Part shown: one piece after another, positions 1-55,690 of the stretch
Position numbering within the stretch: position 1 is the stretch's first letter
Layout: each line of letters begins with the position of its first letter
From: Hemileia vastatrix
Taxonomy: Eukaryota > Basidiomycota > Pucciniomycetes > Pucciniales > Zaghouaniaceae
Length of the DNA: 64,000 nucleotides
Direction of reading: 5' to 3'
NCBI GenBank assembly: GCA_030280995.1
Contig: JASXTE010000010.1
Coordinates: 19,857,823 to 19,921,822 of the forward strand
Made by a program: the position numbers and the translations under genes
Notes under the pieces: model-generated
Seen by the model: the letters and a program-made list of their open reading frames with translations, nothing else
Databases searched by the model: none
Told to the model about the DNA's origin: nothing

Positions 1-522
1 TCAGTATATATGTGAATCTCGCATTGACATCTGAAATTAAATTTAACAAATATTCATAAAGGATTATCCTTTTTTTTCATATAATATACTAATTAAGTGT
101 ATCTCCATTGTTTAGGAGTAAATTCTAATTTAAAAAATTTTGTATTTACCCGTGGCAATTTTAATATGGGATATAAATTTGTTATTATTTGTTTTTCACA
201 CTAAAAGTCCCCAAAGAATTACTAGTATTTTCTGTTAGCTACATCAAATTTCGCTTCAATATAAACAGATTGTGATTTAGCATGTTACTCAGTTTACCCC
301 ACTATGAATAATACATGTTAAAAAAAGCTCAAATAATATAAAATCCCCCTCTTTATGTTTTCTGTTTCTTTCATCCTCACTTTAATTTTAATCTTATTAA
401 ATTTTTTATCCTATTAAAATATCAACTTCAATTTTCTAGAATAGAGTTTCTTATAATTGTTCATCATATTACATCATAATTTTTTGATATCGAATACTTT
501 TTTTTAATATTCATTAATCAAT
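1..522. other. AT-rich region, no gene seen
   Basis: No open frame with protein-like composition and no repeat shared with the rest of the window was found. It probably contains the upstream region of the gene starting at 523, but I see no convincing promoter motif. Confidence 0.5.
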
Positions 523-2950
523 ATGTCTAGTATACAAAATCCTACACCTCCACTTTGTATGTATATCATGTTCCTCTCTCTTAATTTATATATTTCACTT
601 ATGTTCTATATCTTTTTTTTTCAAAAATTTGATTTTCCAGCACCCAAATGTGTTTCATCCCACTCTCTGATTGATACTTGCTTTGAAGCTTTTGAGCTTG
701 CACCATGTCTGCCACATGGCATGGCACCTAACCCTCCTGTACTTAGCAATGAGAGGCAGGAAATAACAAGAGTTCAGTATCGCAATTTACTTGAATTGGC
801 TAGAGATAAAACAGAAGAGCTTGTCAAGATCCTTAACAATAATCCTTCTCCTTCATATTTATCTAACCCTTGTAATGAATTACTCCAATATGTGAAAAGC
901 CTTGAAAAATGTATGTTCATCACCTTTTTTGTCTCCTTTTAAATTAGTAGATAAGATTATTAATATTTTTTTTTCTTCATATATATTTGTAGCTTATGAG
1001 GAGGGTATGATTCCTCCTGATGAAGTCATTGTCATTAGGGATGATGATGAGACAGATGAACCATCAGCTTCAACTCATGCTTCAACTTCTAAGGAAAATC
1101 TTGAAACACCTGTTATCCGCTCCAAGAAAAAGAGATTATCCCAAGGCTCCTCTTTTGTTCGACGTATTAAACCGGCTTCTGCTAATGAATTTTCTGATGT
1201 ATCAAATAATAAATCTCAAAAAAAAAGCAAAGGTTTTGATAATGAGTATATTCTTGTTTCCTTTTTTTATTGTTATTCTTTTATCTTTAAAATTCAATCA
1301 TATATCTCTTTTATTGCTTACATATTGTACTTTTTATCTTTCTTTTGATATTTTGTACCAGAAACTCACCTGCTGTAGATTGTTCCATCCATAAACGCCC
1401 TCTCCCTGATGAAGATGATGAAAAGAGCAATGAAAATAGCGATGATCAACTATCAGAATATGAAGCTATGCTTGTTCATCAAAAAAAGCAAAGTTTAAAA
1501 TCTTCTTCAAGACATGTTGATATGTTTGATAAAGATGATGATTCAAGCAGCTCATCACCAAATTCCTTCATTTCTAAGAAGCAATACCCATCACCTCCTA
1601 AATTACCTACTTTGACCTCTTTGAAAGCTTCTCTACCAATGAAATCAACTCCAATCAAGATATCGAAAAAACCTCTAACTTATTCACCCTCAGTTCTAAA
1701 AGAATCTGATTTGCAGGAGGAATTCTGTAAAATTCATAATTTTTATAAAGGTAGAATCAGCACGGCAAAGGTCCTCAGGTCGTGGTTGGAAATTGTTACT
1801 CTCCTTGAATTACGCTCTTCTACTTCTTCCCAAGAACCCATGTCAAATATTCCAATGTTTACTTTTCATTGGGAAAAATCTTGTGGAGAAGATTGGCTTT
1901 CAAAACTTACTGAGTTATATAAGTTACCATAATTTTTAGTCTTGACTTTTGTTCTTTTACTTATTTTTTTTTTCCTTTTGTAGCAAATATTTTTTTAGAG
2001 ATTGATAGCTCACAGCTATGGGTACTCGATAATATTGATTTCAAAAAAATGGAAGATTTATGTGATCCTGATGGTTTAAATACTGAAATTCTTTCCTCAA
2101 CAAAGAAAACGGATCACCCTGAATCCAATCTTATCCGAATGCTCATGAGATTAATGATCCCAAGTGACCACTGCCGTTCTTCATGGGTATCTCTTATATC
2201 ATCTTCACTTTATCTGACCGCACATGATTTCAGCCAGCTTCCATCACATCAAAAAATTAACTCAGATTGTCCAATTGAGCGTGGTCTTCAGCTTCTAGCT
2301 CACCTTTCAAATCTGAAGAGTCCGATTTCTGATGGCTTAGAAGTTGGTCCCACTGCACTTCAAACCCGTGATATATCAATGTCAACTCTTCTTCAAATCA
2401 GCAATATTATCATTGATATAATTATGTCAATTATCATTCTTAAATCAAAATATTGTGCTGCAACAATATCAAGTGGCAAGACTAGTGAAGCTCAACAATC
2501 AAGTGAGAAAAACGAAAATACTGAACTGACTATAATGAGAGAGAAACAAAAGGCTGCACTAAACAAAATAAATTCTGAATACTCCCACCACCGATATCAA
2601 TCTTTCACATTCTATATAATTGATGGTGTCCGTGGTTTATTTCTGAGCTCTCAAGATCATAGATTGGCTTCAGCAGCTGATTGCTTGGAGGTAATATCAG
2701 AAGTTAAGTTTCTTAATTTACATGAAAAAAAAATCATTTGATGGAAGAAATAATTTGGAAAAATTTAAATAACTATATTTTAACATTAATAAAACCTTTT
2801 ATAGGCAAGTGTGATCCATTTCCTTTAAAATTTGATACCCCAAGTCCTTCGGGAATTGCTAGGGCTATTTCTGCAGATTTTCTTAATCACTGGAGCTCCA
2901 TTCAGCCAGTATCACCTTTTTTTGCTAAACATAGCCTTTCAATAAATTAA
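523..2950 (+). CDS. Hypothetical protein, six-exon gene
   Basis: I do not recognise the product. Splice signals and reading frame support exons 523-556, 641-910, 993-1245, 1362-1922, 1984-2690 and 2810-2950. Intron 1 begins GTATGT and ends CAG; introns 2 and 3 (911-992, 1246-1361) keep frame exactly. The protein would be about 654 residues: a short N-terminus, a helical segment rich in Glu/Lys, an acidic Ser/Asp-rich low-complexity middle (exons 3-4, for example DDDETDE and SSSSS runs) and a more ordered C-terminal half. Two oddities: exon 5 reads through only if one T is removed from the seven-T run near 1991, and the last intron works only with the downstream of two tandem acceptors (TAG at 2802-2804, AAG at 2807-2809). 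The neighbour, a Tet-like oxygenase gene, converges on it. It may be a host gene or part of an unrecognised mobile element; no function is assigned. Confidence 0.6.
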
Positions 2951-3749
2951 TATTCCAACATGTAAATAGATAAAGTTCTGTCTATATGATATATCTTGTA
3001 TAATTCAAGTTATTTTCCTTCAAATACGTCAAAAATGTGACCATCTTTGAAATTTATTAAGTAACCTTTGACATGATTTTCTAAATTAATTATTAAATAA
3101 AATTATTGTAAGTCCAGCAATAACAAAGATTTTAAAATCTACTTATATGATTTCAAATACTTGTATTAAATTCTTAAATATTTTATTGTTTATATAAAAA
3201 TATGATAACTGCTCTAGTTTTGTTACTTTACCTTTAATATTATATAATCTATTAATTATTACAAATATTTTCGTTGATTGTAACATTTTTAATCAGAAGT
3301 AGAACAATTTAAATAATTAAATGAGTACATTCTTAAAAAAATACAATTTAATCTATTATTGATTCAAAATTCTTTCTTCAACTCTTTATTATTACCTTTT
3401 TTATTAATAAGCCTGTTTGACCTAAAATACTATACAGTTAATTTGGTAGCATTAAAAGCACATTTTTATGGCTAATATATTTCAAATTCTTTATTATAGT
3501 TTTTTTTATTTTAGAACCTTTGCTACCAATTTAATAAAAATGACATTTAAAGATTTCACAACTTATATATTTCCTCAAAAGTAAATCAAATTTTCTTATA
3601 ATATTATGAAAAAAAATTATTTTATTTCACAAATAAAAAAAATAGATAATACTATAATTATCAAAACTCAAAATGTTACAGCTACTCCCAGTATTTATCA
3701 TGTTTAAATTTGCATTAAGTTGTGTATATATAATATAAATTTTTAATAT
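2951..3749. other. Intergenic gap between convergent genes, no gene seen
   Basis: About 80% AT. Both flanking genes end here, so it should hold two polyadenylation regions. No repeat or ORF of interest was found. Confidence 0.5.
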
Positions 3750-5642
3750 TTATATATCTAGATTTTTTAGATTTGTCTTAACATTAGATAAATAATACTT
3801 TGCTGATTCTATTTCTTCCTCTATTAAGTCATCTCTTTTCAAAAAAACTCTCAAAGCACTAATCAAATATTCTAACCTAAATTTTTCTTTTTTAATTTCT
3901 AAGTATTCTGAAATATCAATATCAAAAACATTAAGCTTTTCTATAGCATGAAAAAGTCTAGTGCTGATTTGAATAGAAGAACCTATCCTAGTGAAGCTAG
4001 GAATTTCATGACATCTTGAGGTAAAATGCCTTAGTTGATTGGCAGGCCATAATGTCACTGTTATTCCATTAGTTGCTTCAAAGTTGATTTTACTTCGAAT
4101 TTCGGGAAACATAAGTACTCCACCTATTTGTCGTGGTTGGGTCTTATCATACTTCATATGAATGGTGTTTTTTTCTGTATCTTTAGGAAAAAATATTCCT
4201 AAAGTATACTCACTTGCATCCTTATCGAGATCAACCTCATTAGAGAACCCATTACCATTCCCTCCAGATGTCCAAGTTAAATTACTAGCAAACGGTACAC
4301 CCTCTTCTTCACTAGAAACTTTTGAAAATCCAGGAATACCAAGTTTTGCACAAAGATTAGTTGCCTCATTGTACTTTACATATGATATTTTTTTAAAAAA
4401 ATATTCAAAGTACATTGCAATCCTCTTCATTCGTTTTTACAATATCATCAGTGTATTCATCTGCAAGGAAAAGCATTCAAAAATTCAGTATTTAAATTAA
4501 AAAAAGTGATACTTACGAATATGTAAAGATTTCTTTCTATCTAAAATAAAGCCACCACCAAACATTTTTCCAAAACCACCAGCTCTTTGATGATAACCAT
4601 TATTTTTAATTTCATGTTCGCAGTAAGAAAGATCCTTAATGCATCGCACCGTAGCTTCTAACATATCTAGTTCTTTGAGCTCATGAATTTCAAAAGTCTG
4701 CACAAGAACATTAGGTATTAAGACACCTTTTGGTTTATAAATACTACATCCAGGAAAAAAATTGTAATAATTATTGCAATCTGTCATATTATTTGCATAA
4801 GATCGTGCATATAAATGTGGCTTCTTCCCCTTTGTATCCATTCCAAGAGCGTTTACAAGTTTCATTCCAGTAGCAATGTCTTTTGCCCACCTATTGTTAG
4901 AGTTCTTCCCTGGCCGTTTTTTTTTCAAATCCTTACTCATTGATGGTTCAATCCTAAGAGAATTCAATTTTGATTTAAAATAGAAAAAAATCAAAAATTA
5001 GAAAATAGTAACATAATTTCAATTATCAGTCAATGATACCTTTAACTTTATCATATCTTCAATATTAGAAATACAAAAGTTAGCATATCTACATATTAGT
5101 AAATTTATATACTTTTTCTTTATTTCAAATATTAAGAAAGCGTTTCAAAGGTATACTTTATTAAATTATACATATAAAGAGTATAGCTTTATCCTGTATG
5201 CATTCAGCAAGTACGAGATTTGGCTCTACACTTAATATTAATAATATAATGAAAGTATAACTCCAATACACTAGTAATATTAAAAAATTTACGGAATTAT
5301 GATATCCACATATATAAAATGAAAAATCTTGCTCTGATCAATATATTGACTTAGAAAGTTATACTTCAATAAATTATTAATTTTTAAATTGTAGCATTGT
5401 CCTGTATGCTTTCAGCAAGTACGAGACTTTGAAACAACTTAAAAATCAATAAATTAAAGGTAAAGTAAAAACAATCTAATTATTATTATGAAAAGCAAAA
5501 CATTATCCTGTATGCTTTCAGCAAGTACGAGATGATGTTTTACTTTTCATATTAATAATATAATGGTTGAGAAAGTATTAAAGAAATATAGAAAAATGAT
5601 AAGCAAAACATGAACTTACATGTCTATAAAATCTTCTTCCAT
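3750..5642 (-). CDS. Tet-like 2OG-Fe(II) oxygenase domain protein, ligand-substituted
   Basis: Exons on the minus strand are 5642-5620 (MEEDFID), 4953-4517 and 4460-3750, with GTAAGT donors and CTTAG and TGCAG acceptors. About 389 residues if one extra base in the 5' part of exon 3 (about 4437-4405) is an error or frameshift. The family signature is seen in order: GIPGF, PFASNLTW, SNEVDLDKD, YTLGIFFP, GGVLMFPE, a distal His in LRHFTS, and FTRIGSSIQIS with the Arg expected to bind 2-oxoglutarate. Family members usually carry HxD where this protein has DLD (codon GAT), so one iron ligand looks lost. Related TET/JBP enzymes oxidise methylated bases; activity here is doubtful. Intron 1 is 666 nt and holds three palindromes; intron 2 is 56 nt. 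Family assignment is by remembered motif pattern, not by a search. Confidence 0.7.
5150..5260. repeat. Intronic palindrome 1 with conserved core
   Basis: Core 5192-5218 contains ATTCAGCAAGTACGAGA. The left arm (about 5150-5191) and right arm (5219-5260) are imperfect reverse complements over roughly 42 nt. It lies within intron 1 of the Tet-like gene. Confidence 0.75.
5369..5456. repeat. Intronic palindrome 2 with conserved core
   Basis: Core 5400-5426 is the same 27 nt with one base change (T for A at core position 11). Arms 5369-5399 and 5427-5456 pair at roughly 23 of 30 positions, although the arm sequence differs from palindromes 1 and 3. Confidence 0.75.
5474..5564. repeat. Intronic palindrome 3 with conserved core
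   Basis: Core 5506-5532 is identical to that of palindrome 2. Arms 5474-5505 and 5533-5564 pair at about 27 of 32 positions. The right arm shares ATTAATAATATAATG with palindrome 1, so the units are related but diverged. Confidence 0.75.
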
Positions 5643-6686
5643 TTGTAGCTGATTGATCAAAATTAATTATAAAGTTTATTTTATAATCACTGTTTTAAAA
5701 AATAAATGGTTAGATAAATAAATTGAACATTTTTGATAAGGAATAAAGAAAAGTAAATTGACAAACAAATAAAAAAACTTTAAGTTAACTGAAAAAGAAT
5801 TATTTTATAATGAATCGAAAGGGTACAGTAAAAGATACCATAAAAATAAATTCAGAATTAGAATCATTAGATTAACTTGTCAAAAGTGTAAAAAAGTGTA
5901 ACAAACCAAAATGATATGAAATGCAATAGCAAGAAAAATTTGCTTACCGGTAATCAGATAAGGTCAAGAAAATAGTACCAATAATTCAAAATGATAGAGC
6001 AAAAATATGATTGATAATTTTTGAAAAAGGTAAGTGAGAAAAAGAAAGGAAAAATAAATTGGGTGGCAAACAGATGTATATATCATGAATTTTCACTGAT
6101 CACATTTTCAAAAAAATGCAGCTCTCCAAGTCATATGATAAACTTCATCTAAATTCCAAGAATGATGTTGCCAAGGCACTGTACACAGCATGATCATTTT
6201 TTCCTATGCATATACTAATTCCAGCTAGAATTTACTTGGCTGCATGTTGTACAGATGCACATTTGTGGAACACTAAATTTCACATCTAAAAAAAATTGAC
6301 GCCACATAATTCTAGCTACCATGTTTCACGTAGCTAAAAAACATACACTCATCACATTTAAATTTACATTGCGCCAAAATTAATTCATTTTTGAATTTTT
6401 TTAAAGGAAACTATAATGTGCACCACCTATTTCTAAAATATGAACCTCCGCACCATATTAAATTGGGAGACTTTTAATTATGCAATTTTTTTGCCGTGAC
6501 CTTTTTCCTGATCTTACTTGGTTCAAAATATTGAAACATGGCCAATGTTGATGAAAGAAACATTTGATTTTGTTTCTATGTGTAACAATGGAAGGCTGTT
6601 TCTTACTGGCTGAAGAGTGTTGTATATTTTATTTGAACAAATTTTTATTTTTTTATGTATTTTATTTAAAAAATTTACTTTTTATT
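5643..6686. other. Upstream region of the Tet-like gene, no gene seen
   Basis: AT-rich, non-coding. It should contain the promoter of the minus-strand gene starting at 5642. I see no repeat shared with other parts of the window. Confidence 0.45.
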
Positions 6687-7407
6687 GCAGCCAGATTTAT
6701 ACTGGCTGCTTTTTAGAAACCTTAATTTATGACCCAAGCCTTTGAAATTGGCTTGGGTCCCTTACATTGCAATTTAGTACTTCCAGCCAGGTTTCCCTGG
6801 CTGGAAGTGTCTCTTTCAAGCAATCGAAGTCGCTTTTAGCGACTTCGATTGCTTGCTGTAATGTTTGCCACCCTCCCAGCTAATTTACTAGGCTGGGAGG
6901 TGGCCAAAGCAGTGTGCAACGCGCGTTGCTGCTGCAAGTAACGCGCGTTGCACAATCGCTACCATATTTCATGCAGCTGATATCAAGTCAGCTGCATGAG
7001 ATATGCGCAGCATGTGCAATGCGCGCTGCATGCAGCAGAAACGCGCGTTGCATGCAATGCGCATTACTTGCAGCAGCGATGCGTGTTGCATGTGCTGCAT
7101 GCAGTGCATTGCACAGCCAGTTTTTTTCTGGCTGTGCAATGCAGACAGAGAAACCAAAGTCCCTGCAAGGGACTTTGGTCTCTAAAATGGAAGCAACTTT
7201 CCCTACCAGGTGCAATCTGGTGGGAAAGTGAGAGAAACGTTAGACCGAAGTTGTTTGAAAGCAACTTCGGTCTTAAAAACATTAAAAATCATAAAAAAAA
7301 ATGAGAAATGTAGAAAAAAAAAAAAATTAAAAATTAAAACGTGAGTATAAGAAAAAAAAATAAGTTCTAGTGATACCAAAAATCCAAGCCAATTTCATTT
7401 GGCTTGG
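6687..7407. repeat. Array of about 14 distinct hairpins
   Basis: Consecutive inverted repeats with different stems and short loops: 6687-6709 (8 bp), 6731-6759 (10), 6779-6808 (13), 6817-6855 (17, perfect), 6872-6900 (9, extendable with bulges to 6864-6908), 6913-6954 (15), 6963-7005 (18 with one T-G), 7015-7052 (11 with one G-T), 7051-7092 (14 with two G-T), 7105-7143 (16, loop of seven T), 7153-7179 (12, loop GCA), 7196-7229 (13 with one bulge), 7242-7273 (12) and, after an A-rich gap, 7384-7407 (9). Stems are GC-rich and CpG-containing, loops mostly AT-rich, and both flanks are about 80% AT. Adjacent hairpins follow each other with very few unpaired bases. Short ORFs here are open on both strands because of the palindromes and are not counted as genes. 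The nature of the array is unknown. Confidence 0.85.
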
Positions 7408-9559
7408 TTATTTAATAATTATTTTTTAATACATTAAATTTAAAATTCAAACACCATAAAATATATGAATTTTTTTTATATGAATATTATAAATTTAATC
7501 TACCTCTTTCTCATAATTATATTTATAATTTTGTTTTTTTAATTTTTGACATTTAAGTTTATTTTTTGGAAATACAAAATTAAATTTTCAACTAAATTTT
7601 TTAGTAAGGTAAAATAAATTATAAATTTGACATTTTGTAATTGAATAATGAAAAAAATTTTAAATTTATTTAAAAAATATTTTTGTTAGAAGAATACAAA
7701 TATTTTAAGGGTAGAAATATGGTGCAAATTGTAAGTAAAAAAAATTATATTTTTTTTGTGAGGGGTTATTTCTATTTTTAAAAATATTTTTCAAAAACAT
7801 TCATTAAATACTGAATTAAATTAGTTTGAAACTCAAATTTTTTGTAAAATAATTAAAAATGAAATAATAATATTGTTGTATTTGATATAAAATTTGAATT
7901 GGTAATATTAATGTCTCTTTAAGTAAATTTGAAAATCATTTAAAAAGACCATGTTGATAAGTACTTCATTTTTGATATACAATGGTTATATATATATCTT
8001 ATATATATTTCTTGAGTGTTATTTTTATATACATTCAATAAAATTTGTAATATAAAATGCCATTTAATAATTAATTAATGTTCAACTTAGTTATAACAAC
8101 TTCATATTTAATACCAGCCACTAGTATTTACTTTTTAATTTAAAACTCCAATATAATATGAGAGTATCCTTATTTTGTCTGTATGTAATGAACAACAATA
8201 ACAGAACATAAATGAGTGGGTAGTTAATTACAATAAATAGTTGAAGAATAACCTATAAGAAATGGTAAGTTTATCAAAAAGAGTACATTAAAAAAATATA
8301 CTTTTGAATTTTTTTTGATATAATTTGGGTAGTTAAATGAAAATTTAAATTATCAGACATCAAAATGGATAAAATCTAAAAGTAGTGTTTATATAATAAG
8401 CCTCATATAAAAAAAGGATAAAAAATCTACTATGTAACTAAATTATTAAATATTAAGGTATTATTAAAATTATTGAAAAACTTATTTTACAGTTATAATG
8501 AAATCTAAATGTGAAAATAATGGTGGGATAATAGTAAGACTATGTGGAAACACTTTAATTTATACATACTTTCAACTATGTTCAGATAAAAAAATTGTTA
8601 AAATTGTATAATAACATCTAGTTAATAGTGATGCAATTTTATTTAGATCAAGAATAAATTTTTCTGAGGAAAAACTAATTAAATTGAGATATGGCCATCT
8701 CCTTTCAAGAGATAGAATAATAATAAAAATTTAAAAAATTATAATAAGTATTCTTAATCACCATTTTTGAAAAGTCTCTAGTAAAATTCATTATAATATA
8801 TCATTCATTGATTACATTATATGGAGTTTCATCTTGAAGTAGTGATGTGCAGCTTTGAACTTATGTTATGAAAAACAAAAAAGTTAAAAAATATATAGTT
8901 ATACTAATGAAAAAGCCAAAAATAAAAATACTATTATAAATTAAAAAAATAAAACTACATAAATTTTATTCTGCTCCAATGATGGAAGGGTACTATGTAT
9001 GAATTTCCACATGTTAAATCCAAACCTGCTTTAAGGCTAGTTTACAGGTAGAGCTATTAAGTTTCCTTAAATTCTAAAAATAACTTATGCATTTTACTAA
9101 TTATTTTTTTCTTGTTTCTTTCCAAAGTTGTTAGAGTTGCTTAATTAATACTGTTATCTTGATTGTAAGATATATAATTTTTTTTGAATACATGATTTAT
9201 TGTTTCAAAAATTATATTATAAATTTAAATCATTTATTTCATTTTCTAAAGCTTTATTGTCAAAGACACAACTCCATTTTCTATTACTTAACAAATATAT
9301 AAAAAGTGATAGTAAAATTTGAGGAATTTTCTTTTTGAGAGGGTCAAACTATATTGTGAAGATTTTTTCTAGAAATTCTTGTACTCTAAAACCAAATAAT
9401 TTTCTCCCTTAAGTAAGCCATTTCAAAAATATGAGAATATAAACAAGAATATTAACTTATCTTATTTTTATTTTCTTTACTGAAAGTTTTAGTTCAATCC
9501 CTTTTTTTATATGACATTAGTATAAAAACATGGTTAAATGCTACTATATAATTAATTTT

Positions 9560-9562
<3 letters not shown>

Positions 9563-9607
<45 letters not shown>
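9563..9607. repeat. (TA)n microsatellite
   Basis: Uninterrupted TA dinucleotides, 45 nt. Confidence 0.95.
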
Positions 9608-9614
<7 letters not shown>

Positions 9615-11321
9615 TTAGAACGTCATCCTTTTTTATTTACTTGAATAAATGGCTCAATTATAATACCCAACACTTATTAATGTTTCCCAAACTCAATAAC
9701 AAATTTCTCATATGAAATATTAGCTTCTAATATAAGAAGTTTATCTATAGATGATATTCAACATGTGATTTTACTTTTTAGATTCAGCTAAAATTAAACA
9801 AAAGGAGAAATCATGCATATGTGTATAAATGGTAACCATATGTTACTTAGAGGATTGTGAAATTCACTCATCAGAATGGTTTAAGTATTAAAATAAATTG
9901 AGGTCATTATTTTCTAGTATTTGAAACTAATTAGGAAATTATTCTAAAAATATATTTTAATGTGTATCATGTTTAAAAAGTTGGAAATATGATTTTTGAA
10001 AATTGTGAGTTTCTTATGAGATACCAAGCTTTAGTTTACATTGTTTCAAGTAGAATAGAATTTTAGTATTAGAAATTGAAAGCAATGTACCATTATCAGA
10101 TTTTAACTGTGTTCTACTTATAGAATGATTACATAACATTAAACATTATTTAAATCAAAAAGGTTTAAAAGATATTTAGAATTTTACCAAATTTCACCAT
10201 TTATTAATCTTTGATTTGAAAACAAACTATGATGTACACTCACTAGAAATAAGCAATCCCAGTTTTAACATAATTTATCAATCCAAAAATAATGAGTCAA
10301 TTAAAATGAAAATATATATTATTTCAAAACCAATTCTCTAGATTTAAAATATGATGCTTTAATGAAAAATTATTACAAAACTTTAATGCAATGAAGTCTC
10401 TTAAAAAATTCAAAAATAGAATATCAAAACAAGTAATTTCTGCAAAAAAAACTACTAACTATTGTAGATAAAGCATAAAAATAAGTCATATTTTTTAAAA
10501 AAATGATCTAACAATATTTATTTTTGTTAAAAAAATCAAAACATTGTTAAGTTTTCTTGTTATAATAATGTTAAAATCCACTAAACATTATCTAAAGGTG
10601 GTAAAATATGTTAAAAATAAGTTGAATTTTATGAGATAAAAATCAACAATTTTGTATCATTTCCTGTTGTGCTATGACTTTATTCCACCCTTTTTATCTG
10701 ATTCTTCCAGTATTACTTTGCTATGATCACTAGTTTTCAAGTTAAAATTTACAAATGTTCATTATACTTGATAATATGAAAAATAACTCAAACTTTTATA
10801 ACTACAAAATAAGATTTTGTAACTCCTTCTTTCAATCAATATTTGAAGAAATTTTAGTTTATTTGAGTAATGATTTTAAGAATAACAAAAAATTTGAAAT
10901 TCACAAGGAATTATTTCCAGAGACTATAATTATTTACTTGTGTAATGCATGAGCTACTTATCAATGATGTAAAACATCAGAAAAGTAAGTTATAGTTATA
11001 AATCTACAGATTATACTGTTTCTGGTATATATATCTTCAATAAATCTTTTAAACTTATCTTAGCCTACATACCACACAATAGAAAATCATTATATTAAAA
11101 ATGGAAAAAATTCTATGATAATATCATAAAGAATGATAACCATGGATTAATATTCCATAAAAATGGTTAATAATATTTTAAGAGAACCTAAATCAGTATT
11201 CTTTCATCAAAATATATCCTTTTTGTCTTTGTAATTTATTCCAAACAAATTTTTTGAAAGTTGAATCTATATATCTAATGCCAAAACCACTATTAAGTTC
11301 CCTCTTAGACTTTTTAAGAAA

Positions 11322-11322
11322 T

Positions 11323-11353
<31 letters not shown>
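11322..11353. repeat. (TA)n microsatellite, interrupted
   Basis: TA dinucleotides with one TG interruption, about 32 nt. Confidence 0.9.
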
Positions 11354-13258
11354 TATTTATCAAAAATTGAAATAAAGAATAAAAACATAATTTTATTTAC
11401 CTTTAATTATTTAAATATAGAGTATTTTCAGAATCCATTGTGGTTACTTGTGAAGGTTAGAAGATTTGAAGTTGGATTTATGAGTTTTTAGAAGGGCAAA
11501 TATTGTAAAATTCTTTCATAAATATTTATTTCATAGTTTCAAATGTTGAAATCTACAAACTAATGGGATTTAAAATTATATTGAGATTTAAAATCTGTTT
11601 TCTACTCAAGTAAAATAAAATAAAATGATGATATCAAAATTGAAATTAAGTTTAAACTTTTGATATGCTCTATCTTCAATTTTATTGATAGTGCATCAAA
11701 AATTTAATAATATTTTTTTCCTTCATCACTTTTTACATAAAAGATAGTTTTATCATTTTATGAATTAAAGATTGCTTATATAAATTTAACATCTATGTCA
11801 ACTGTTTATGACTATTAATCTATATAATAAATTTTTTAGAAGAAAAAATAACATCAGTATATACTGAATTTGAAATTATTCAATTTAAAATAGTTTACAG
11901 GTAGATAATGAAGGGTGATTTCATTTTTGAATATGAACTATAGAAGTCTTATTTTATCAATTTTAATTCTTTTTGAGCTCAAATGTATCCACCGCAACTT
12001 AAGTAAGAATAAAAATTATTTTTATTGAAATTTACATGAGAAAGTATGCCTATTATTCAAAATCAAACTTGCTCTAATGGTGTTTTTCAATCATTATTTC
12101 CATTCATAACAATAAAAAACATTTCAATTTGCTGATGTTTTAGTTTTTGATATCCCCAAGTTTATATCTCAGGTGTACTATTCACAAAATTATTAAAAAT
12201 ATAATTTTCGAAATACATGATAAACTTGAAAGTGAGGGGGCATTAAATTTTTAAAAATGAATTCTAAATTCAGGATGGATAGTATTTTTTCTATTTTCAC
12301 AAATGAACAATTTTTTGTTTCAATTAATCCAGAAAGAAAATTTTGTTGTAAGCATATTATATTATATTTATTATGATTTTAAATACTATATTTTCAAGAT
12401 TTGTGTTTAATATTTCCTGTGAAAGTTAATGTTAATGTGAATTTAAAGTAAGCTTGAAGAAATTTAATCAATAGGCATATTGGATATTTAAAATAATATT
12501 TTGCTCCAATCTTGAATCATCCTGGGCTAAAAAATATCCAAAATAAGGTTTTTGTGGGTCAATTTGGATTTAAGTAGGATTAAGTGAGGTTTAATAAAGG
12601 ACAGATAAAAGGCTAAATTCATTACTAGTGACTTTTTTCTCAAAATAGTTATAAAATATGTATCATTCTGGAATCAAGCTTCAATAAAGTTGAATTGAAA
12701 CAGAGATAATTTCTAGCAGCACAACACCATATTTACAAAGGTGTAAAATACCTCAAATATTACTCATAATATAGGAAGGCAAGGAATCTACAAAATTCAC
12801 ATTTCAAACAAAGATTTATATTTTGAATTTGAAATTGAGAAATGGAATATTATTTTCCAATTTAAATATCTATTAGTCATTTTAACAAAAGTTTTCAGTA
12901 ATCAGATTGAATTTTGATGGTATTTTGTTGTAGATTAATCATTTTGATGAGACATTTACTCAAAATTACTGGTTTCGTTTCTAATATTCCATGTGAAATT
13001 CATTACGAATCTTTTTGAAAGTGAATAGTTGACATATTGGATATGCAAAAGCTTATGTTAGATCAAAGTGAGATCAAAGGGAGCTTAACTGATGATCAAA
13101 TTAGGATTTTACAAGATCAAACGGTGATCAATGTAGGTTCATCTTGAGCTCAATTTGTGACAAATCTCTGACTAAATGTAAGGCCAAACAATTTCCTACA
13201 TGGTGATGATGTGTGCATAATTCAAGCATAGATTTGTGGCTCAACGGAGCTCAAGCAA

Positions 13259-13298
13259 GGGGTATTGCTAGCAATACCCCCCCATTTTTTCTGTGGTG
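13259..13298. mobile_element. CACTA-like terminus with perfect 22-bp palindrome
   Basis: Bases 13259-13280 form a perfect palindrome centred on TTGCTAGCAA. The 29 nt from 13270 to 13298 align with the right terminal repeat of the 261-bp element at 20012-20272 (about 20 of 29 identical, both ending in GTG-A/G-GTG after a C-run), and that element has the same kind of palindrome (20235-20252) at its inner TIR edge. I read this as the right end of a related CACTA-like element that cut the 5' side of gypsy copy A. Its left end was not found. Confidence 0.5.
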
Positions 13299-13560
13299 AA
13301 TATAAACCTAATTAAACTGGTATTTGGTTAAATCTTGGTAAGCTATTTATTCAACCTTATAAAGGTCTAGTTAAAATTATTAATTTATTTTTAACAGATT
13401 TTTCCGAATTTTTATTACATTTTATTTAAATAAATAAAGATTTAAATTCAGGGTAAGTTCCAGTGCTTTTTATTAGTAATAATATTGCTAATACTTTTAA
13501 TATACTAATTCCAATATATTTTCCTTTCTGTAGATGTAATATATTGTTAATTTTATTAGT

Positions 13561-20011: not shown

Positions 20012-20272
20012 CACCACACAATATGGGGGGCGGACTTGCTCGTGAGTCCGCAACCTTGGACCCAAACTCACAACAGATTGAACACACATTGAGCTATTGA
20101 TAAAGGAACCATACAATCAGGAATGAACACCACTCAGCAGAACAGTTTTAGGTGGGTGTTCAAGTAGAGTTCAGTTTGAGTTCAGTATGAGTTCAGTCTG
20201 AGTTCCATCTGAGTTCCATCTCAGTTCAGGTTGAGGACTTGCTAGCAAGTCCACCCCCTATATTGTGTAGTG
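20012..20272. mobile_element. CACTA-like MITE, 261 bp
   Basis: Terminal inverted repeats of 29 nt (20012-20040 and 20244-20272) starting CACCACACAATAT and CACTACACAATAT, differing at three positions, all transitions. It is flanked by the 3-bp direct repeat ACA (20009-20011 and 20273-20275); copy B shows the empty site. CACTA start and 3-bp TSD are diagnostic of the CACTA/EnSpm superfamily. The interior has seven subterminal GAGTTC-type repeats (20166-20228) and no ORF. An 18-bp palindrome abuts the right TIR. Confidence 0.85.
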
Positions 20273-20275
20273 ACA

Positions 20276-21382
20276 CAGTCTTACACATTGAGTCAGTAAC
20301 AAATATTCTGTGCAAAGGAAGAGCATCCAATGAGATGGAACTTCTGGAAACAGAAATTTCAAAAGCATCATTTGGCACTCAGATAAGCAAAGCTGAGAAA
20401 AATAATATTTTGGACTTAATTAAAGAATTTCCAATGGCTTTCGCACATGGTACAAATGAACTTAACCTTGTAAAAGATCATGAAATGAAGACTAGTTTAA
20501 CCTGTGATATGGATAATATTCCTGCTAGTCTTAAAAAGAAACCATACCCTGCTTCACCAATGAAGAGGAAAGACATAGAGGATAATATTAAGATGTTATT
20601 AAAGATGAAAATTCTTGAAAAGGTTGAAACTACAACAAAATATTGTGTAATATCACCAGTGCTAATTTCTTATGAACAAGATAAAGCAAGACTGTGCGGT
20701 GATTATAGAGCATTAAATACATTTACAGTAGATGATATTTATCCCTTGCCAAGGATTGCCTCTATACATGCTACCCTCAAAGGTGCTAAGTATATAAGTT
20801 GCTTAGATGGAAATAAAGGGTACCATCAAATTCCTGTTGAAAAGAATTCACAGAACTTTTAGTTGATAACAACACACATGGGAATTTATAAATATGTCAG
20901 GATGCCATTTGGACCAAAAAATGCTCCATCAGTATTTCAGAAGTAAATGGATATAACATTCCATAATGAAATGATTGAGGGATGGTTAATGGTATACATT
21001 GATGACATCATAGTGTTCTCTAAGACTTATGATGAACACTTATTCCCTTTAAAGAAGGTATTTCAAAAAATGGATGACATAAAAATGACCCTTGCATTGA
21101 AAAAATGTATTTTGGGTTTGAATCTTTAAAAGTGCTTGGTCAGATTGTATCTGGCTTACAAATATGTGTAGACCAAAATAAAGTGGCTGCAATAAAGAAT
21201 TTTGGCATTCCTCAACATGTAAAGGATGTACAATCTTTTCTTGGTATGTGTGGTTATTATAGACAATATATAAAAAACTACCAATTAATTGCTGCACCAT
21301 TAACCACACTGATAAAGAAATCAGAAGCTTTTATTTGGAATAATGAAAGACAACAGGCATTTGATAAGTTGAAAGATGTTTA
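20276..21382 (+). pseudogene. Reverse transcriptase of copy A
   Basis: Homologous along its length to copy B. Recognisable are the RT core with ARLCGDYRALN, the palm motif MPFGPKNAPS, and the catalytic YIDDIIVFSK near 21000. In-frame stops near 20861 and 20944 and frameshifts near 21105 and 21382 disable it. The MITE at 20012-20272 separates it from protease. Confidence 0.85.
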
Positions 21383-23428
21383 ATGACAGCTCCTATCTTG
21401 GGATTACCAGATTTCCAATCGCCTTTTGTATTATATACAGATGCAAGTTTTATTGGTCTGGGTGCTGCTTTGCATCAAAAACAACTTATTGAAGGAAAAA
21501 TGTCAGAAGTAGTAATTTGCTATATTACACGTACTCTAAGAAGTAGTGAATTGAAATATGGTGCTACTCAACTTGAATGTTTGGCAGTAGTATGGGCTCT
21601 TGAGAAGCTACATTATTACCTTGAAGACCAAAAATTTGAGTTAATAACTGACTGTAGTGCAGTTAAGTCACTCTTGAACATGAAAACTCCTAATAGACAC
21701 ATGTTTAGATGGCAATTAGCTGTACAAGAATACAGAGGACGAATGACTATTACACATAGAGCAGGAACCTTACACTCTAATTTAGATCTGTTATCTAGAG
21801 TACCTCTGCCTAATAATGATGATAATCCTGCTGATGTTCCTGAATCAGAGATTATTAACACTTATGGCATTTATATTGTAGATCTTGAGGATGAATTTAT
21901 GCAATCAATTCTTGATATGTATGCTTCAGATTCTGACTTGAGTAAACTCACTACAATATTAAATGATCCATCTAATGCTTCAATGAATGTTTTAATAAAA
22001 ACATTACCAAATAATTATAAAGAGGCATTAGAAAAAGGAAAATTCTCCATTGAGGATGGTTTTATATATTACAGAAAAAAATTAAGTAATGTAATTGTAA
22101 TTCCCCCTTCAATGAAGGAGTTAATGTTAAGTATATGTCATGATGATATATTGGCAGGTAATTTTGACTACCATAAAACATTAACCAGAGTAAAAAACAC
22201 AGCTTGGTGGATTAATATGTCTGAGGATGTTCAGAAATATGTTGAGACATGTGATTCTTGTCAAAAATCTAAAAGATTAACAGGCAAAAGAGCTGGTTTA
22301 TTACAACAAATTGAGCAACTAAAAGCTCCATGGGAAATAATTAACATGGACTTTGTAACAGGTTTGCCAATAGCAGGGCATAAGAGTTATAATTCCTGCT
22401 GGGTAATTGTAGATAGATTTACAAAGATGTGTAAATTTATTCCTACCCACAAAGAGGTTTCTGCAAAGGACTTAGCTTTTTTATGGTGGACACAAATGTT
22501 AAATATAGCAGGTTTCCCCAAAGCAATAGTTTCTGACAGAGATCCTAAATTTACTTCTGAGTTCTGGACATCACTTATGGATGTTTCAGGGTGACAATTA
22601 AAACTTTCTACAGCACACCATCCACAAACTGATGGGCTAGCAGAAATAAAAATACAAACTTTAGAAGATATGATAAGAAGATATTGTGCTTTTGGTCTTA
22701 ACTTTAAAGACAATGACAAATTCATGCATGATTGGGTAACCCTTATCCCAGGTTTAGAATTTGCATACAATAGTACAGTACATTCTGTCACTGGCAAAAT
22801 GACATTTGAGTTATGGTTGGGTTATGTACCTAATACCTGTGCTAAAACTCTTAATAAATTACCTAGATTAGATATCCATCCAGGTACTAAATCTTTTCTT
22901 CAGATGCAAGAATTATACGGAAAACATGCTCAAGAATGTATAAATAAGGTGTTTGAGTATGAAAAGAAAAAATGGGATAAAGCCCATAAAGAACAAATGT
23001 TCAAAGAGGGTGATGAAGTCCTTATTTCAATAATACATTTCAATTTAAATGGTAATGTTAAATTGAAGGATCCATTCATTGGACCATTTGTAGTTAAAAA
23101 GATGATTGGTAATAATGCTGTTGAGGTTATTCTATATGCACCTTATGATAGAAAACATCCAGTATTTCCTATTTCTCTTATAAAACCATACCATTCTAAT
23201 GATACTGCCCTATTTCCAAGAAGATCAGGAAGGAATAAACAACAACCTGAAGAAATAGTTGAAAAGGCAGAAATTGAAAAGATACTTAAAAAGAGACACC
23301 TTACAAAAGAAAAGGGAGTTGAGTATCTATTAAGATTTAAAAATAAATCAAGTGAATATGACCAGTGGATTCCAGTAAATGAAATCTCTGATCTTAAAAA
23401 TCTCTTGAAAAAATTTAAATCAAAATAA
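21383..23428 (+). pseudogene. RNase H, integrase and chromodomain of copy A
   Basis: RNase H begins with LYTDASFIGLGA. The integrase zinc finger reads CHDDILAGNFDYHK (copy B has GHF, so a ligand His is changed) followed by CDSCQKSKR. Core residues are NMDFVTGLP, VSDRDPKF and DGLAEIK. A stop at 22592-22594 splits the core. The C-terminus (about 23250-23425) is chromodomain-like: EIEKILKKR, YLLRFKN, DQWIP. Confidence 0.85.
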
Positions 23429-34216: not shown

Positions 34217-36333
34217 TTATTTAGATTTAAATTTTTTCAAGAGATTTTTAAGATCAGAGATTTCATTTTCTGGAATCCACTGGTCATATTCACTTGATTT
34301 ATTTTTAAATCTTAATAGATACTCAACTCCCTTTTCTTTAGTAAGGTGTCTCTTTTTAAGTATCTTTTCAATTTCTGCTTTTTCCACTATTTCTTCAGGT
34401 TGCTGTTTATGCCTTCCTGATCTTCTTGGAAAGAGAGCAGTATCATTAGAATGGTATGGTTTTATAAGAGAAATAGGAAATACTGGATGTTTTCTATCAT
34501 AAGGTGCATATAGAATAACCTCAACAGCATTATTACCAACCATCTTTTTAACTACAAATGGTCCAATGAATGGATCCTTCAATTTAACATTACCATTTAA
34601 ATTGAAATGTAGCGTTGAAATAAGGACTTCATCACCCTCTTTGAACATTTGTTCTTTATGGGCTTTATCCCATCTTTTCTTTTCATACTCAAAAGCCTTA
34701 TTTATACATTCTTGAGCATGTTTTCTGCATAGTTCCTGCATCTGAAGAAAAGATTTAGTACCTGGATGAATATCCAATCTAGGTAACTTATTAAGAGTTT
34801 TAGCAGGGGTATTAGGTACATAACCCAACCATAACTCAAATGGCTTTTTGCCAGTGACAGAATGTACTGTACTATTATATGCAAATTCTAAACCTGGGAT
34901 AAGGGTTACCCAATCATGCGTGAATTTGTCATTGTCTTTAAAATTAAGACCAAAAGCACAGTATCTTCTTATCATATCTTCTAAGGTTTGTATCATTCTT
35001 TCTGCTAGCCCATCAGTTTGTGGGTGGTGTGCTGTAGAAAGTTTTAATTGACACCCTGAAACATCCATAAGTGACGTCCAGAACTCAGAAGTAAATTTAG
35101 GATCTCTGTCAGAAACTATTGCTTTGGGGAAACCTGCTGTATTTAACATTTGTGTCCACCATAAAAAAGCTAAGTCCTTTGCAGAAACCTCTTTGTGGGT
35201 AGGAATAAATTTACACATCTTTGTAAATCTATCTACAATTACCCAGCAGGAGTTATAACTCTTATGCCCTGCTATTGGCAAACCTGTTACAAAGTCCATG
35301 TTAATGATTTCCCATGGAGCTTTTGGTTGCTCAATTTGTTGTAATAAACCAGCTCTTTTTCCTGTTAATCTTTTAGATTTTTGACAAGAATCACATGTTT
35401 CAACATATTTCTGAACATCCTCAGACATGTTAATCCACCAAGCTGTGTTTTTTACTCTGGTTAATGTTTTATGGTAGTCAAAATGACCTGCTAATATATC
35501 ATCATGACATATACTTAACATTAACTCCTTCATTGAAGGGGGAATTACAATTACATTACTTAATTTTTTCCTGTAATATATAAAACCATCCTCAATGGAA
35601 AATTTTCCTTTCTCTAATGCCTCTTTATACTTATCTGGTAATTTTTTTATTAAAACATTCATTGAAGCATTAGATGGATCATTTAATATTGTAGTTAATT
35701 TACTTAAGTCAGGATCTGAATTATAATTATCAAGAATTGATTGCATAAATTCATCCTCAAGATCTACAATATAAATGCCATAAATGTTAATAATCTCTGA
35801 TTCAGGAACATAAGCAGGATTATCATCATTATTAGGCAGAGGTACTCTAGATAACAAATCTACATTAGAGTGCAAGGTTCCTGCTCTATGTGTAATAGTC
35901 ATCCGTCCTCTGTATTCTTGTACAGCTAATTGCCATCTAAACATGTGTCTATTAGGAGTTTTCATGTTTAAGAGTGACTTAACTGCACTACAGTCAGTTA
36001 TTAACTCAAATTTTTGGTCTTCAAGGTAATAATGTAGCTTTTCAAGAGCCCATACTACTGCCAAACATTCAAGTTGAGTAGCACCATATTTCAATTCACT
36101 ACTTCTTAGAGTACGTGAAATATAGCAGATTACTACTTCTGACATTTTACCTTCAATAAGTTGTTTTTGATGCAAAGAAGCACCCAGACCAATAAAACTT
36201 GCATCTGTATATAATACAAAAGGTAATTGGAAATCTGGTAATCCCAAGATAGGAGCTGTCATTAAACATTCTTTCAACTTATTAAAAGCTTGTTGTCTTT
36301 CATTATTCCAAATGAAAGCTTCTGATTTCTTTA
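34217..36333 (-). CDS. RNase H, integrase and chromodomain of copy B
   Basis: Open from 36333 to 34217 (first Met 36277), 686 residues from that Met. RNase H starts LYTDASFIGLGA with downstream CLAVVWALEKLHYYLE. Integrase has an intact HHCC finger (CHDDILAGHFDYHK, CDSCQK) and the three acidic residues in NMDFVTGLP, VSDRDPKF and DGLAERM. The C-terminal 60 residues are chromodomain-like (EIEKILKKR, YLLRFKN, DQWIP), marking a chromovirus that targets chromatin. Separated from RT only by a 1-nt deletion; no other lesion seen. Confidence 0.9.
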
Positions 36334-37635
36334 TCAGTGTGGCAGTGGTGCAGCAATTGATTGGTAGTTTTTTATATATTGTCTATAATAACCACACATT
36401 CCAAGAAAAGATTGTACATCCTTCACATTTTGGGGAATGCCAATATTCTTTATTGCAGCCACATTATTTTGGTCTACACATATTTGTAAGCCAGATACAA
36501 TATGACCAAGCACTTTTAAAGATTCAAACCCAAATTTATATTTTTTCAATGCAAGGGTCATTTTTATTTCATCCATTTTCTGAAATACTTTCCTTAAATG
36601 GATTAAGTGTTCATCAAAATTTTTAGAGAACACTATGATGTCATCAATGTATACCATTAACCATCCCTCAATCATTTCATTATGGAATGTTATATCCATT
36701 AACTTCTGAAATACTGATGGAGCATTCTTTGGTCCAAATGGCATTCTGACATACTTATAAATTCCCATGTGTGTTGTTATCAACAAAAAGTTCTGTGAAT
36801 TCTTTTCAACAGGAATTTGATGGTACCCTTTATTTCCATCTAGGCAACTTATATATTTAGCACCTTTAAGGGTAGCATGTATAGAGGCAATCCTTGGCAA
36901 GGGATAAATATCATCTACTGTAAATGTATTTAATGCTCTATAATCACCGCACAGTCTTGCTTTATCTTGTTCATAAGAAATCAGCACTGGTGATATTACA
37001 CAATATTTTGGTGTAGTTTCAACCTTCTCAAGAATGTTCATCTTTAATAACATCTTAATATTATCCTCTATGTCTTTCCTCTTCATTGGTGAAGCAGGGT
37101 ATGGTTTCTTTTTAAGACTAGCAGGAATATTATCCATGTCACAGGTTAAACTAATTTTCATTTCATGATCTTTTACAAGGCCAAGTTCATTTGTACCATG
37201 TGCAAAAGCCATTGGAAAAGCTTTAATTAATTCCAAAATATTATCTTTCTCAGTTTCACTTATCTGAGTGCCAAATGATGCTTTTGAAATTTCTGTTTCC
37301 AGAAGTTCCAACTCATTGGATTCTCTTCCTTTAGATGGGGAATTTGTTACTGACTCAATGTGTAAGACTGTGTTAAAAGAATTTATTTTAAATTTCCTTT
37401 TACCATTCATGCCAATTGTAAAATTATTATTAGCAGGGTCTAATTTTACACCAAATTTAGTCAGAATATCATTTCCAATGATAAAACAGTTACTACAATT
37501 TGTATTATCCATTACTACAAAGTCACAAGTTACCCTTACATAACCATGTTGGTGTTTAAAGAAAACAGCAGCTTTGTATTTACCAATGGGGTGTAGTACT
37601 GATCCAAAACCTCTCCAATTTTTATTCTGAAGTGG
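36334..37635 (-). CDS. Protease C-terminus and reverse transcriptase of copy B
   Basis: Same frame as Gag, following the single stop at about 37638 (copy A reads a Glu codon there). It contains FIIGNDILTKFG from protease, then RT: LCGDYRALN, LDGNKGYHQIPV, MPFGPKNAPSVFQ and catalytic YIDDIIVFSK. It ends with a frameshift in AAPL, near 36335, where copy A has one base more. Confidence 0.9.
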   Translation of the reverse strand, partial: PLQNKNWRGFGSVLHPIGKYKAAVFFKHQHGYVRVTCDFVVMDNTNCSNCFIIGNDILTKFGVKLDPANNNFTIGMNGKRKFKINSFNTVLHIESVTNSPSKGRESNELELLETEISKASFGTQISETEKDNILELIKAFPMAFAHGTNELGLVKDHEMKISLTCDMDNIPASLKKKPYPASPMKRKDIEDNIKMLLKMNILEKVETTPKYCVISPVLISYEQDKARLCGDYRALNTFTVDDIYPLPRIASIHATLKGAKYISCLDGNKGYHQIPVEKNSQNFLLITTHMGIYKYVRMPFGPKNAPSVFQKLMDITFHNEMIEGWLMVYIDDIIVFSKNFDEHLIHLRKVFQKMDEIKMTLALKKYKFGFESLKVLGHIVSGLQICVDQNNVAAIKNIGIPQNVKDVQSFLGMCGYYRQYIKNYQSIAAPLPH

Positions 37636-40083: not shown

Positions 40084-40592
40084 ATTGTTCAGAATAACAA
40101 TATTTTACGTCTACAAAAGGAAAAACTCTTTGGAATTAGTAGACAAAAGATATTAGTAATTATATTACTAATAAAAAGCAATGGAGCTTACCCTGAATTT
40201 ATATCTTTATTTATTTAAATAAAATATAAGAAAAATTCGAAAAAATCTGTTAAAATTATAATAATAAGTTTAACTAGACCTCTATAAGGGTGAATAATTA
40301 GCTTACCAAGCTTTAGCCAAATACCAATTTAATTGGGTGTTATATTGGTGTCCAAATACCAAGTGAAATTGGGTTTATATTGGGTACAGTTACTACTGTA
40401 AATATCTAATTTTTATGATAAAAAATTAGTACAATTATTATAAGGGTTCTTTTCCGCAATCAATGAGCTATGATGACCCACTAATATGCCACAGACCCAA
40501 ATATTTGGTTAATTTTGAGTTGTACTAAGGTAAAAATCACGTCCCAAGGCTTATACTAAATAATAAGTAAAATATAAGGAAAGACCCCCAAT
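40084..40592 (-). other. Leader of copy B
   Basis: About 500 nt between the 5' LTR and gag, non-coding, with two copies of a CCAAATACCAA motif. The PBS is not recognised: the bases next to the LTR (ATTGGGGGTCTTTCC on the minus strand) do not match a primer tRNA I can name. Confidence 0.6.
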
Positions 40593-55146: not shown

Positions 55147-55690
55147 AAATACACATGTTTACTCTGATCTTTGCTTTTAGATCAAGGTACACCTTTTCAA
55201 TTTTTAAGAACAATGTGTTGAAAGAAAACAATATAGTGGTAAATCCACTCATGTGTACCCTGATCTTTGTGTGAAGATCAGGGTACACTTCTGAAAATCT
55301 CTGATACAACTTTTATCAAGGCCAATATACAATTGTGGACTCTGATTTTCTGCCAAAGATGAAGGTCCACCTCTTCAAATATCACTGAACACATGGTTGC
55401 AGGCAAAAATACCATTGTGTACCCTGATCTTTGGCCGAAGATCAGGGTACACATCTTAAAATTTCAATTTTTATCAAGGCCAATATACAATGGTGTACTC
55501 TGATGTTTGGCCAAGGATGAAGGTCCACCTCTTCAAATATCACTGAACACATTGTTGCAGGCAAAAACACAATGGTGTACCCTGATCTTTGGCCGAAGAT
55601 CAGGGTACACATCTTCAAATTTCAAGAAATATTTGAATAGGAGAAAAAACATATGTACCCTGATCTAATCATATGTAAAAGGTTTTGTTA
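55147..55690. repeat. Hairpin array with constant stem
   Basis: Three perfect 15-bp hairpins with stem GTGTACCCTGATCTT at 55253-55288, 55417-55452 and 55575-55610, loops of six. Three degenerate ones lie at about 55159-55195, 55335-55372 and 55493-55530, plus a partial one at 55654-55680. Part of the array is a 158-bp tandem duplication (starts 55313 and 55471). It replaces the N-terminal half of the Tet-like relic. Confidence 0.85.

Follow-up and report, generated by a model that had tools for sequence, protein, structure and literature searches.

The left part of the 64-kb window (the whole stretch of DNA that was analysed) is occupied by the right half of a CACTA/EnSpm-type transposon, whose full extent of 26,917 bp (26.9 kb) runs from -13618 to 13298 in window coordinates (G000:C194:19844204-19871120), so that the left end of the element is located 13,618 bp to the left of the window. 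Ten other copies show similarity across the entire left part of the window, and nine of them end at 13299-13301; the match of the C34 copy ends already at 11340, and two of the nine others carry an insert near 8740-8860. The termini are of the 5'-CAC..GTG-3' type, with CACCACAG at the left in 3/3 copies and CTGTGGTG at the right in 10/11. They belong to terminal inverted repeats of 40 bp, the left one being CACCACAGAAAATTTGGGGGGGTATTGCTAGCAATACCCC and the right one its reverse, with 38/40 bases alike, and both ends of the element hold the palindrome GGGGTATTGCTAGCAATACCCC, which differs by one base in the C531 copy. Target-site duplications of 3 bp (AAT, ACC, and AGC) were found in all three copies in which both ends were read. 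Outside the element, positions 20191-23428 and 34217-40104 of the window hold two Ty3-type retrotransposon remnants or copies with a chromodomain.

The transposase of this element matches PF02992 (Transposase_21, tnp2-type) above the cut-off (E 1.3e-10) and PF18759 (Plavaka) below it (E 0.0044). Its four protein relatives are distant and all hold PF02992, and a GDIPA motif followed by FCSFC, a C(2)C motif, was read by eye. The copy in the window contains one in-frame stop, and NCBIfam gave no match above its cut-off in ten frames. Two other classes of transposon were considered, a Helitron for the terminal hairpin and a KDZ transposon for the TET gene; the CACTA-type ends and target duplications rule out the former, and the tnp2-type transposase the latter.

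On the strand opposite to the transposase lies a gene for a TET/JBP-like dioxygenase. Its upstream frame (4497-4997) has no Pfam match when taken alone, and the TET exon found no protein relatives among 309 candidates and nothing at E up to 1 among solved structures. Read by eye on the minus strand, the start codon is predicted at 5642-5640, with the exon ending at 5620 and the next one beginning at 4953. Throughout the genome, PF20515 gave 10,849 first-look candidates, of which 150 were scored and all of these lay above the cut-off, and no first-look candidates appeared in 14 control genomes. Judged by these first-look candidates, this Tet-like dioxygenase family has undergone a very large genome-wide expansion.

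According to this gene model, three further hairpins would sit in intron 1 of the TET-like gene. Their apical 27 nt (TCCTGTATGCTTTCAGCAAGTACGAGA on the plus strand) are nearly identical. Their alignment covers 35 pairs, of which 85.7% are paired (at most 51% in slid versions), and 10 pairs have changed on both sides (0/500 shuffles), this covariation being drawn from three sequences only and from a structure derived from one of them. No Rfam family reaches its cut-off on these hairpins.

About 1 kb upstream of the predicted start codon, 5.9 kb from the right end of the element and 20.3 kb from its left end, lies the hairpin array proper. The first-pass annotation, made from the letters alone, had described it as about 14 hairpins, mostly perfect, with exceptions that are nearly all G-T and a GC content far above that of the flanks, and this description proved accurate. 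Thirteen hairpins are packed in 6687-7273 and one more follows at 7384-7407. Leaving out the two bulged hairpins (6864-6908 and 7195-7229), the other 12 comprise 161 base pairs, of which 155 are Watson-Crick, five are G-T, and one is A-C; the bias towards G-T among the non-Watson-Crick pairs on the plus strand (5/6) is weak (one-sided binomial 0.11). The GC content is 0.43, versus 0.25 for the remainder of the element within the window.

With a stem of at least 9 bp, a loop of 3-14, and a stem GC of at least 0.35 as criteria, the 721 bp of the array contain 10 perfect hairpins, versus a mean of 0.08 and a maximum of 2 in 500 dinucleotide shuffles of the same span. The whole window holds 14 hairpins of this kind, 10 of them within 6731-7407 and the others at 13259 (the transposon's own end), 55253, 55416, and 55575 (tandem repeat). 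Folding of both strands against shuffles (20 per strand), a check that the first-pass annotation had suggested together with a search of the assembly, gave z-scores of -28.7 for the plus strand and -22.3 for the minus strand. When the fold was slid along in 160-nt windows, the seven windows over the array reached z-scores of -7.2 to -13.2, and the lowest among the remaining 328 windows of the transposon was -6.9. Among 632 control windows (in the 64 kb, outside the transposon) the minimum, -9.8, fell on a tandem repeat of hairpins near 55.5 kb, and a window at 15.7 kb reached -9.0. Because strong folds also occur in these controls, hairpins are not unique to the element, and density is what sets the array apart. 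Rfam 15 gave no match at the gathering cut-off within the window, with 21 sub-threshold matches in 4900-7500 at E up to 2 (best E 0.012); the tRNA search found none, and the plasmid and phage collections gave no match.

Features of the element and of its hairpin array, in window coordinates
Feature	Position	Strand	Basis or remarks
Right half of 26,917-bp CACTA/EnSpm-type transposon	1..13298	+	Sharp right end in 10/11 copies, left end in 3 copies
TET/JBP-like 2OG-Fe(II) dioxygenase frames (PF20515)	3750..4997	-	E 1.5e-19 on 3753-4436
Proposed intron 1 of TET-like gene	4954..5619	-	By eye; splice-like letters and in-frame join
Three hairpins of ~80 nt, conserved 27-nt apical part, differing paired stems	5165..5565	-	Fold and alignment
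Hairpin array H1-H14 (14 hairpins)	6687..7407	.	Hairpin and fold searches, shuffles
H1	6687..6709		Perfect 8-bp stem GCAGCCAG
H2	6731..6759		Perfect 10-bp stem
H3	6779..6808		Perfect 13-bp stem; flipped loop in 4/31 copies
H4	6817..6855		Perfect 18-bp stem; loop TTT in 3/31 copies (window among them), AAA in 28/31
H5	6864..6908		Arms of 17 nt, two one-base bulges
H6	6913..6954		Perfect 15-bp stem; 87% complementary to 7053-7090 as well
H7	6963..7005		18-bp stem, 1 G-T pair
H8	7015..7052		11-bp stem, 1 G-T pair; unit 1 of 38-bp tandem pair
H9	7053..7090		12-bp stem, 2 G-T pairs; unit 2 of 38-bp tandem pair
H10	7105..7143		Perfect 16-bp stem
H11	7149..7183		16-bp stem, 1 A-C mismatch
H12	7195..7229		Arms of 14 nt, one bulge
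H13	7242..7273		15-bp stem, 1 G-T pair
H14	7384..7407		Perfect 9-bp stem, beyond A-rich gap
AT-rich non-coding stretch, nearly without CpG	7501..13000	.	CpG count (4 in 5.5 kb)
Right terminal inverted repeat with palindrome GGGGTATTGCTAGCAATACCCC	13259..13298	-	Target duplication AAT at 13299-13301

The array is not confined to this locus but forms part of a dispersed repeat of 27 kb. A search with 6600-7500 in its own assembly (747.6 Mb, 791 contigs), in which 40 of 1534 first-look candidates were scored, gave 119 matches, namely 40 full-length copies and 79 short matches on the opposite strand, which arise because the array consists of inverted repeats. There are, therefore, at least 40 dispersed copies, full length and 98-99% identical (the window itself, 100%). 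The scored ones are spread over 17 contigs, 15 of which are of known length, each of at least 10 Mb. That the array belongs to the transposon is practically certain: it is a non-coding segment that bears structure and lies in the interior of a TET-carrying element of CACTA/EnSpm type, itself present in many copies.

The stems had been regarded as unrelated to each other, and tandem duplication as playing no part in their origin, and neither view is supported. The centres of the 13 consecutive hairpins are spaced by 46.6 +/- 4.1 bp (about 47 bp), an evenness matched by 102 of 20,000 permutations of lengths and gaps and by 79 of 20,000 of gaps alone, and arms of different hairpins have 7-mers in common in eight pairs (0.55 expected; 0/2000 letter shuffles) and 6-mers in nine (2.7 expected; 3/2000 shuffles), although in both the spacing and the motif tests the limits of the hairpins were chosen after the sequence had been viewed. 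Three of the eight pairs with common 7-mers stem from the 38-bp tandem pair H8/H9 and H10. In H1, H3, and H10 the stem part CAGCCAG/CTGGCTG is common, and the next outward pair is G-C, C-G, and A-T, respectively; H4 and H13 have CGAAGT in common and differ in two pairs, on both sides. These common parts and base-paired differences give the stems the look of paralogous units whose sequences diverged with pairing kept. With its regular spacing and common motifs, the array is probably a degenerate satellite of hairpin units of about 47 bp, which would have grown by unit duplication.

Differences among the copies reveal how the array changes. An alignment of 31 scored copies, made up of the window and 30 more and leaving out nine of the 40, contains two loops that are polymorphic for orientation, those of H3 and H4, as exact reverse complements between their arms. 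The loop of H4 reads AAA in 28/31 copies and TTT in 3/31, and that of H3 reads TTTCC in 27/31 (the window copy being one base short) and GGAAA in 4/31. The copy tree is poorly resolved, and each of the two inversions may be a single event. Such inversions are what template switching between arms produces, and they lend support to an exchange between arms at the DNA level, one of the origins considered by the first-pass annotation.

Changes at stem pairs follow another pattern. Treating the pairs of the two bulged hairpins rigidly, 61 cells of the alignment are altered, as 37 one-sided mismatches, 20 G-T pairs, three Watson-Crick pairs, and one two-sided non-pairing change; neither a compensatory two-sided change nor the repair of a mismatch by copying the other arm was seen in the 31 copies. 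Most point changes in stems fall at CpG (41/62), with rates per site and copy of 0.053 for CpG, 0.001 for A/T, and 0.003 for other G/C. When sites that vary in at least two of 11 copies were counted along the element, the bin 6501-7000 had nine and tied for the highest of 27 bins; three of these nine sites correspond to the H4 flip and three are CpG-type stem sites. Copies thus decay once inserted, mostly at CpG, and the present variation shows no sign of constraint on the array. As the stems decay freely in the present copies, the transposing lineage is the only place where a constraint can have operated.

A constraint of that kind is likely, judging from the base composition of the array and from the second set of structures in the transposon, the three hairpins at 5165-5565. 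It holds 24 CpGs, versus 4 in the whole of 7501-13000 (5.5 kb), and its ratio of observed to expected CpG is 0.71, compared with 0.30 for the remaining element sequence within the window and 0.15 for the remainder of the window. Hairpins of similar GC content are almost absent elsewhere in the element. Unbiased exchange between arms fixes losses of CpG as often as it repairs them and therefore does not suffice alone to preserve CpG, which calls for selection, biased repair, or a recent origin. Recent origin, which the first-pass annotation had put forward, finds support at the level of the copies, which are 98-99% identical, and not at that of the hairpins as such. There are indirect hints of selection on a folded RNA or on cruciform DNA, likewise put forward there: the paired differences between units and the CpGs kept in the array.

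Taken together, these data are best explained by a hairpin satellite inside a TET-carrying transposon, turned over by template switching and probably endowed with a folded role in cis, a reading to which an overall probability of roughly 0.6 can be given. Its first component, a satellite with template-switch turnover, can be held with good confidence, and a selected cis function of the array is slightly favoured. The array would have grown as hairpin units duplicated. During DNA synthesis, template switching would let the arms of one unit exchange sequence, flipping the loops, and by analogy with the mechanism in yeast and in RNA genes it could also re-perfect mismatched stems, an effect not seen here. 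Selection in the transposing lineage probably kept the pairing as well, and the array would then act in cis, as folded nucleic acid located upstream of the TET gene. The place beside this gene, the pairing kept amid sequence change, the free loops, and the weak G-T bias all point to such a folded cis-acting nucleic acid. As for its form, RNA transcribed through the array is the tentative first choice and cruciform DNA the second, itself rather doubtful. It is also conceivable, if unlikely as a whole, that the array and the three intron hairpins form one cis-element next to the TET gene, folded as RNA or as cruciform DNA, with stems that covary and are under selection. Such an element might tune TET expression or mark the transposon for its own demethylase, and would be kept perfect jointly by template switching and selection; if true, eukaryotic DNA transposons would possess a structured organ of a new kind.

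The strongest rival, which appears improbable without being negligible, is that the array arose by mutation alone and has no function: in a recent ancestor it was built by template switching and duplication of units, which keep the arms alike, and the element can do without it. The loop inversions prove that arms are exchanged, the copies are young (98-99% identical), their stems decay freely, and shared variation is not reduced over the array; a recent origin likewise accounts for perfect stems and kept CpGs. However, base-paired differences between paralogous units take time or repeated events, hairpins with this GC content are nearly absent elsewhere in the element, and 24 CpGs have been kept where CpG decays fast, unlike what unbiased conversion would leave.

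Two other functional explanations fare considerably worse, and both seem quite unlikely. According to one of them, the inverted repeats are an array of binding sites for a protein of the element, bound as double-stranded DNA and forming no hairpins, which would agree with the 7-mers common between units and with the terminal palindromes of a second CACTA-type element, which have the same core. Binding should, however, keep sequence and not pairing, yet most units differ in sequence; loop inversions and long stems are unexpected, and the position, with 5.9 kb of the element to the right and 20.3 kb to the left, is not subterminal. The other makes the array, or the pairing between 6913-6954 and 7053-7090, a source of diced double-stranded RNA that silences or regulates the element. 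Its appeal lies in the very stable fold, the long-range pairing (38 nt at 87%), and the microRNA-like Rfam matches, which are sub-threshold, no Rfam match reaching the cut-off. The single stems of the array, at 8-18 bp, are short for a dicing substrate. An assembly artefact or a transferred mitochondrial segment, in favour of which nothing was found, is most improbable, given that the 40 near-identical copies are spread over 17 contigs, among them 15 of known length with at least 10 Mb each, and that the array lies within a transposon with target duplications; the transposon ends, together with these duplications, speak against a mitochondrial insertion.

Transposons of this group are already known from rusts, and a rust as host would fit the genome at hand, which measures 747.6 Mb, is AT-rich, and gave many PF20515 candidates. 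TET+ EnSpm transposons have been described in Puccinia, and EnSpm families related to them in Austropuccinia, among others (Kojima 2025, PMC12730594). According to that source, the TET+ EnSpm elements of Pucciniales have, like the one described here, CAC..GTG ends, 3-bp target duplications, a TET/JBP gene aboard, and a transposase similar to Plavaka/EnSpm. The word 'hairpin' is absent from the main text of PMC12730594, and the present family may be among its supplementary sequences. Searches of the openly licensed literature yielded no description of an array of hairpins in transposons of this kind. The first-pass annotation knew of no described fungal nuclear element of this form, which can stand for the array alone, since the group to which its carrier transposon belongs has been described (PMC12730594). 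A working array would mean that TET-carrying transposons possess a structured cis-element next to the demethylase-like gene that they carry.

In the evolution of RNA and DNA, it has long been puzzling how the paired arms of hairpins remain perfect. In yeast, inversions of the spacer are described only at repeats with arms of more than 9 bp, which flip within short times (PMC8604942). The hairpins attributed to template switching in PMC8794818 and PMC8604942 resemble those of the array in their perfect arms and in the exact inversion of loops in a short time, but the cases treated in these sources are single and lie in genes, whereas here about 14 are found in one transposon and compared over 31 copies. 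The repair of arms by template switching that these sources describe (PMC8794818, PMC8604942) was not seen in the array copies. At least 40, and perhaps many hundreds, of near-identical copies of 14 hairpins constitute a natural replicate experiment, which allows direct counting of loop flips and arm changes.

Other hairpin-rich or repeat-rich systems are less similar. The double-hairpin elements and GC clusters of fungal mitochondria are small units spread singly in mitochondrial DNA. Repetitive hairpin-forming elements have reportedly been found in sponge mitochondria (PMC2800124). Both the fungal and the sponge elements are, like the array, short GC-rich hairpins amid AT-rich sequence, but they are scattered singly, while the array has a fixed place in the interior of a 27-kb transposon, and this transposon lies on large contigs. 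The mitochondrial analogy drawn in the first-pass annotation does not fit, the array sitting in a CACTA-type, very probably nuclear transposon with target-site duplications. Plant CACTA elements, in turn, have subterminal repeats bound by TNPA. These are also motifs repeated in both orientations inside a CACTA-type element; the array differs from them in that it is not subterminal and keeps its pairing amid sequence variation.

Besides the array, several other palindromic structures were observed in this transposon and in other repeats. A nested palindrome of 1.5 kb lies within the element at L029:7548-9072 (window -2452 to -928), with two arms of 506 bp that are 90% alike when inverted and about 67% alike directly; it is rich in ATTAATTTCGATCGAAATTAAT-like palindromes, and one arm folds with a z-score of -19.8. 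Another copy carries a small CACTA-type insert (L016:2337-3169) with a TSD of TTA and the ends CACCACGCAATATAGGGGG and GTGTGGTG. Its terminal palindrome has the same core, TTGCTAGCAA, with different paired flanks (GCGGAC/GTCCGC), and two inner hairpins have TGAACTCTGTTC arms. The hairpins of other repeats (window 55253-55610; L010:2378-2411; L011:7342-7375; L016:2636-2752) have loop sides that are alike (TCTTTGGCCGAAGA, TTCTTCGCCCGAAGAA) and stems that differ, and hairpins may be common in the mobile elements of this genome. The end of yet another repeat family, with GGGGGTGTCAGTTCTGG beside AAATCCGCACTT palindromes, is found in the window from 15719, at L030:151-198, and in L010 near 2900-2952, and the C502 element carries one copy of this family as an insertion close to its left end.
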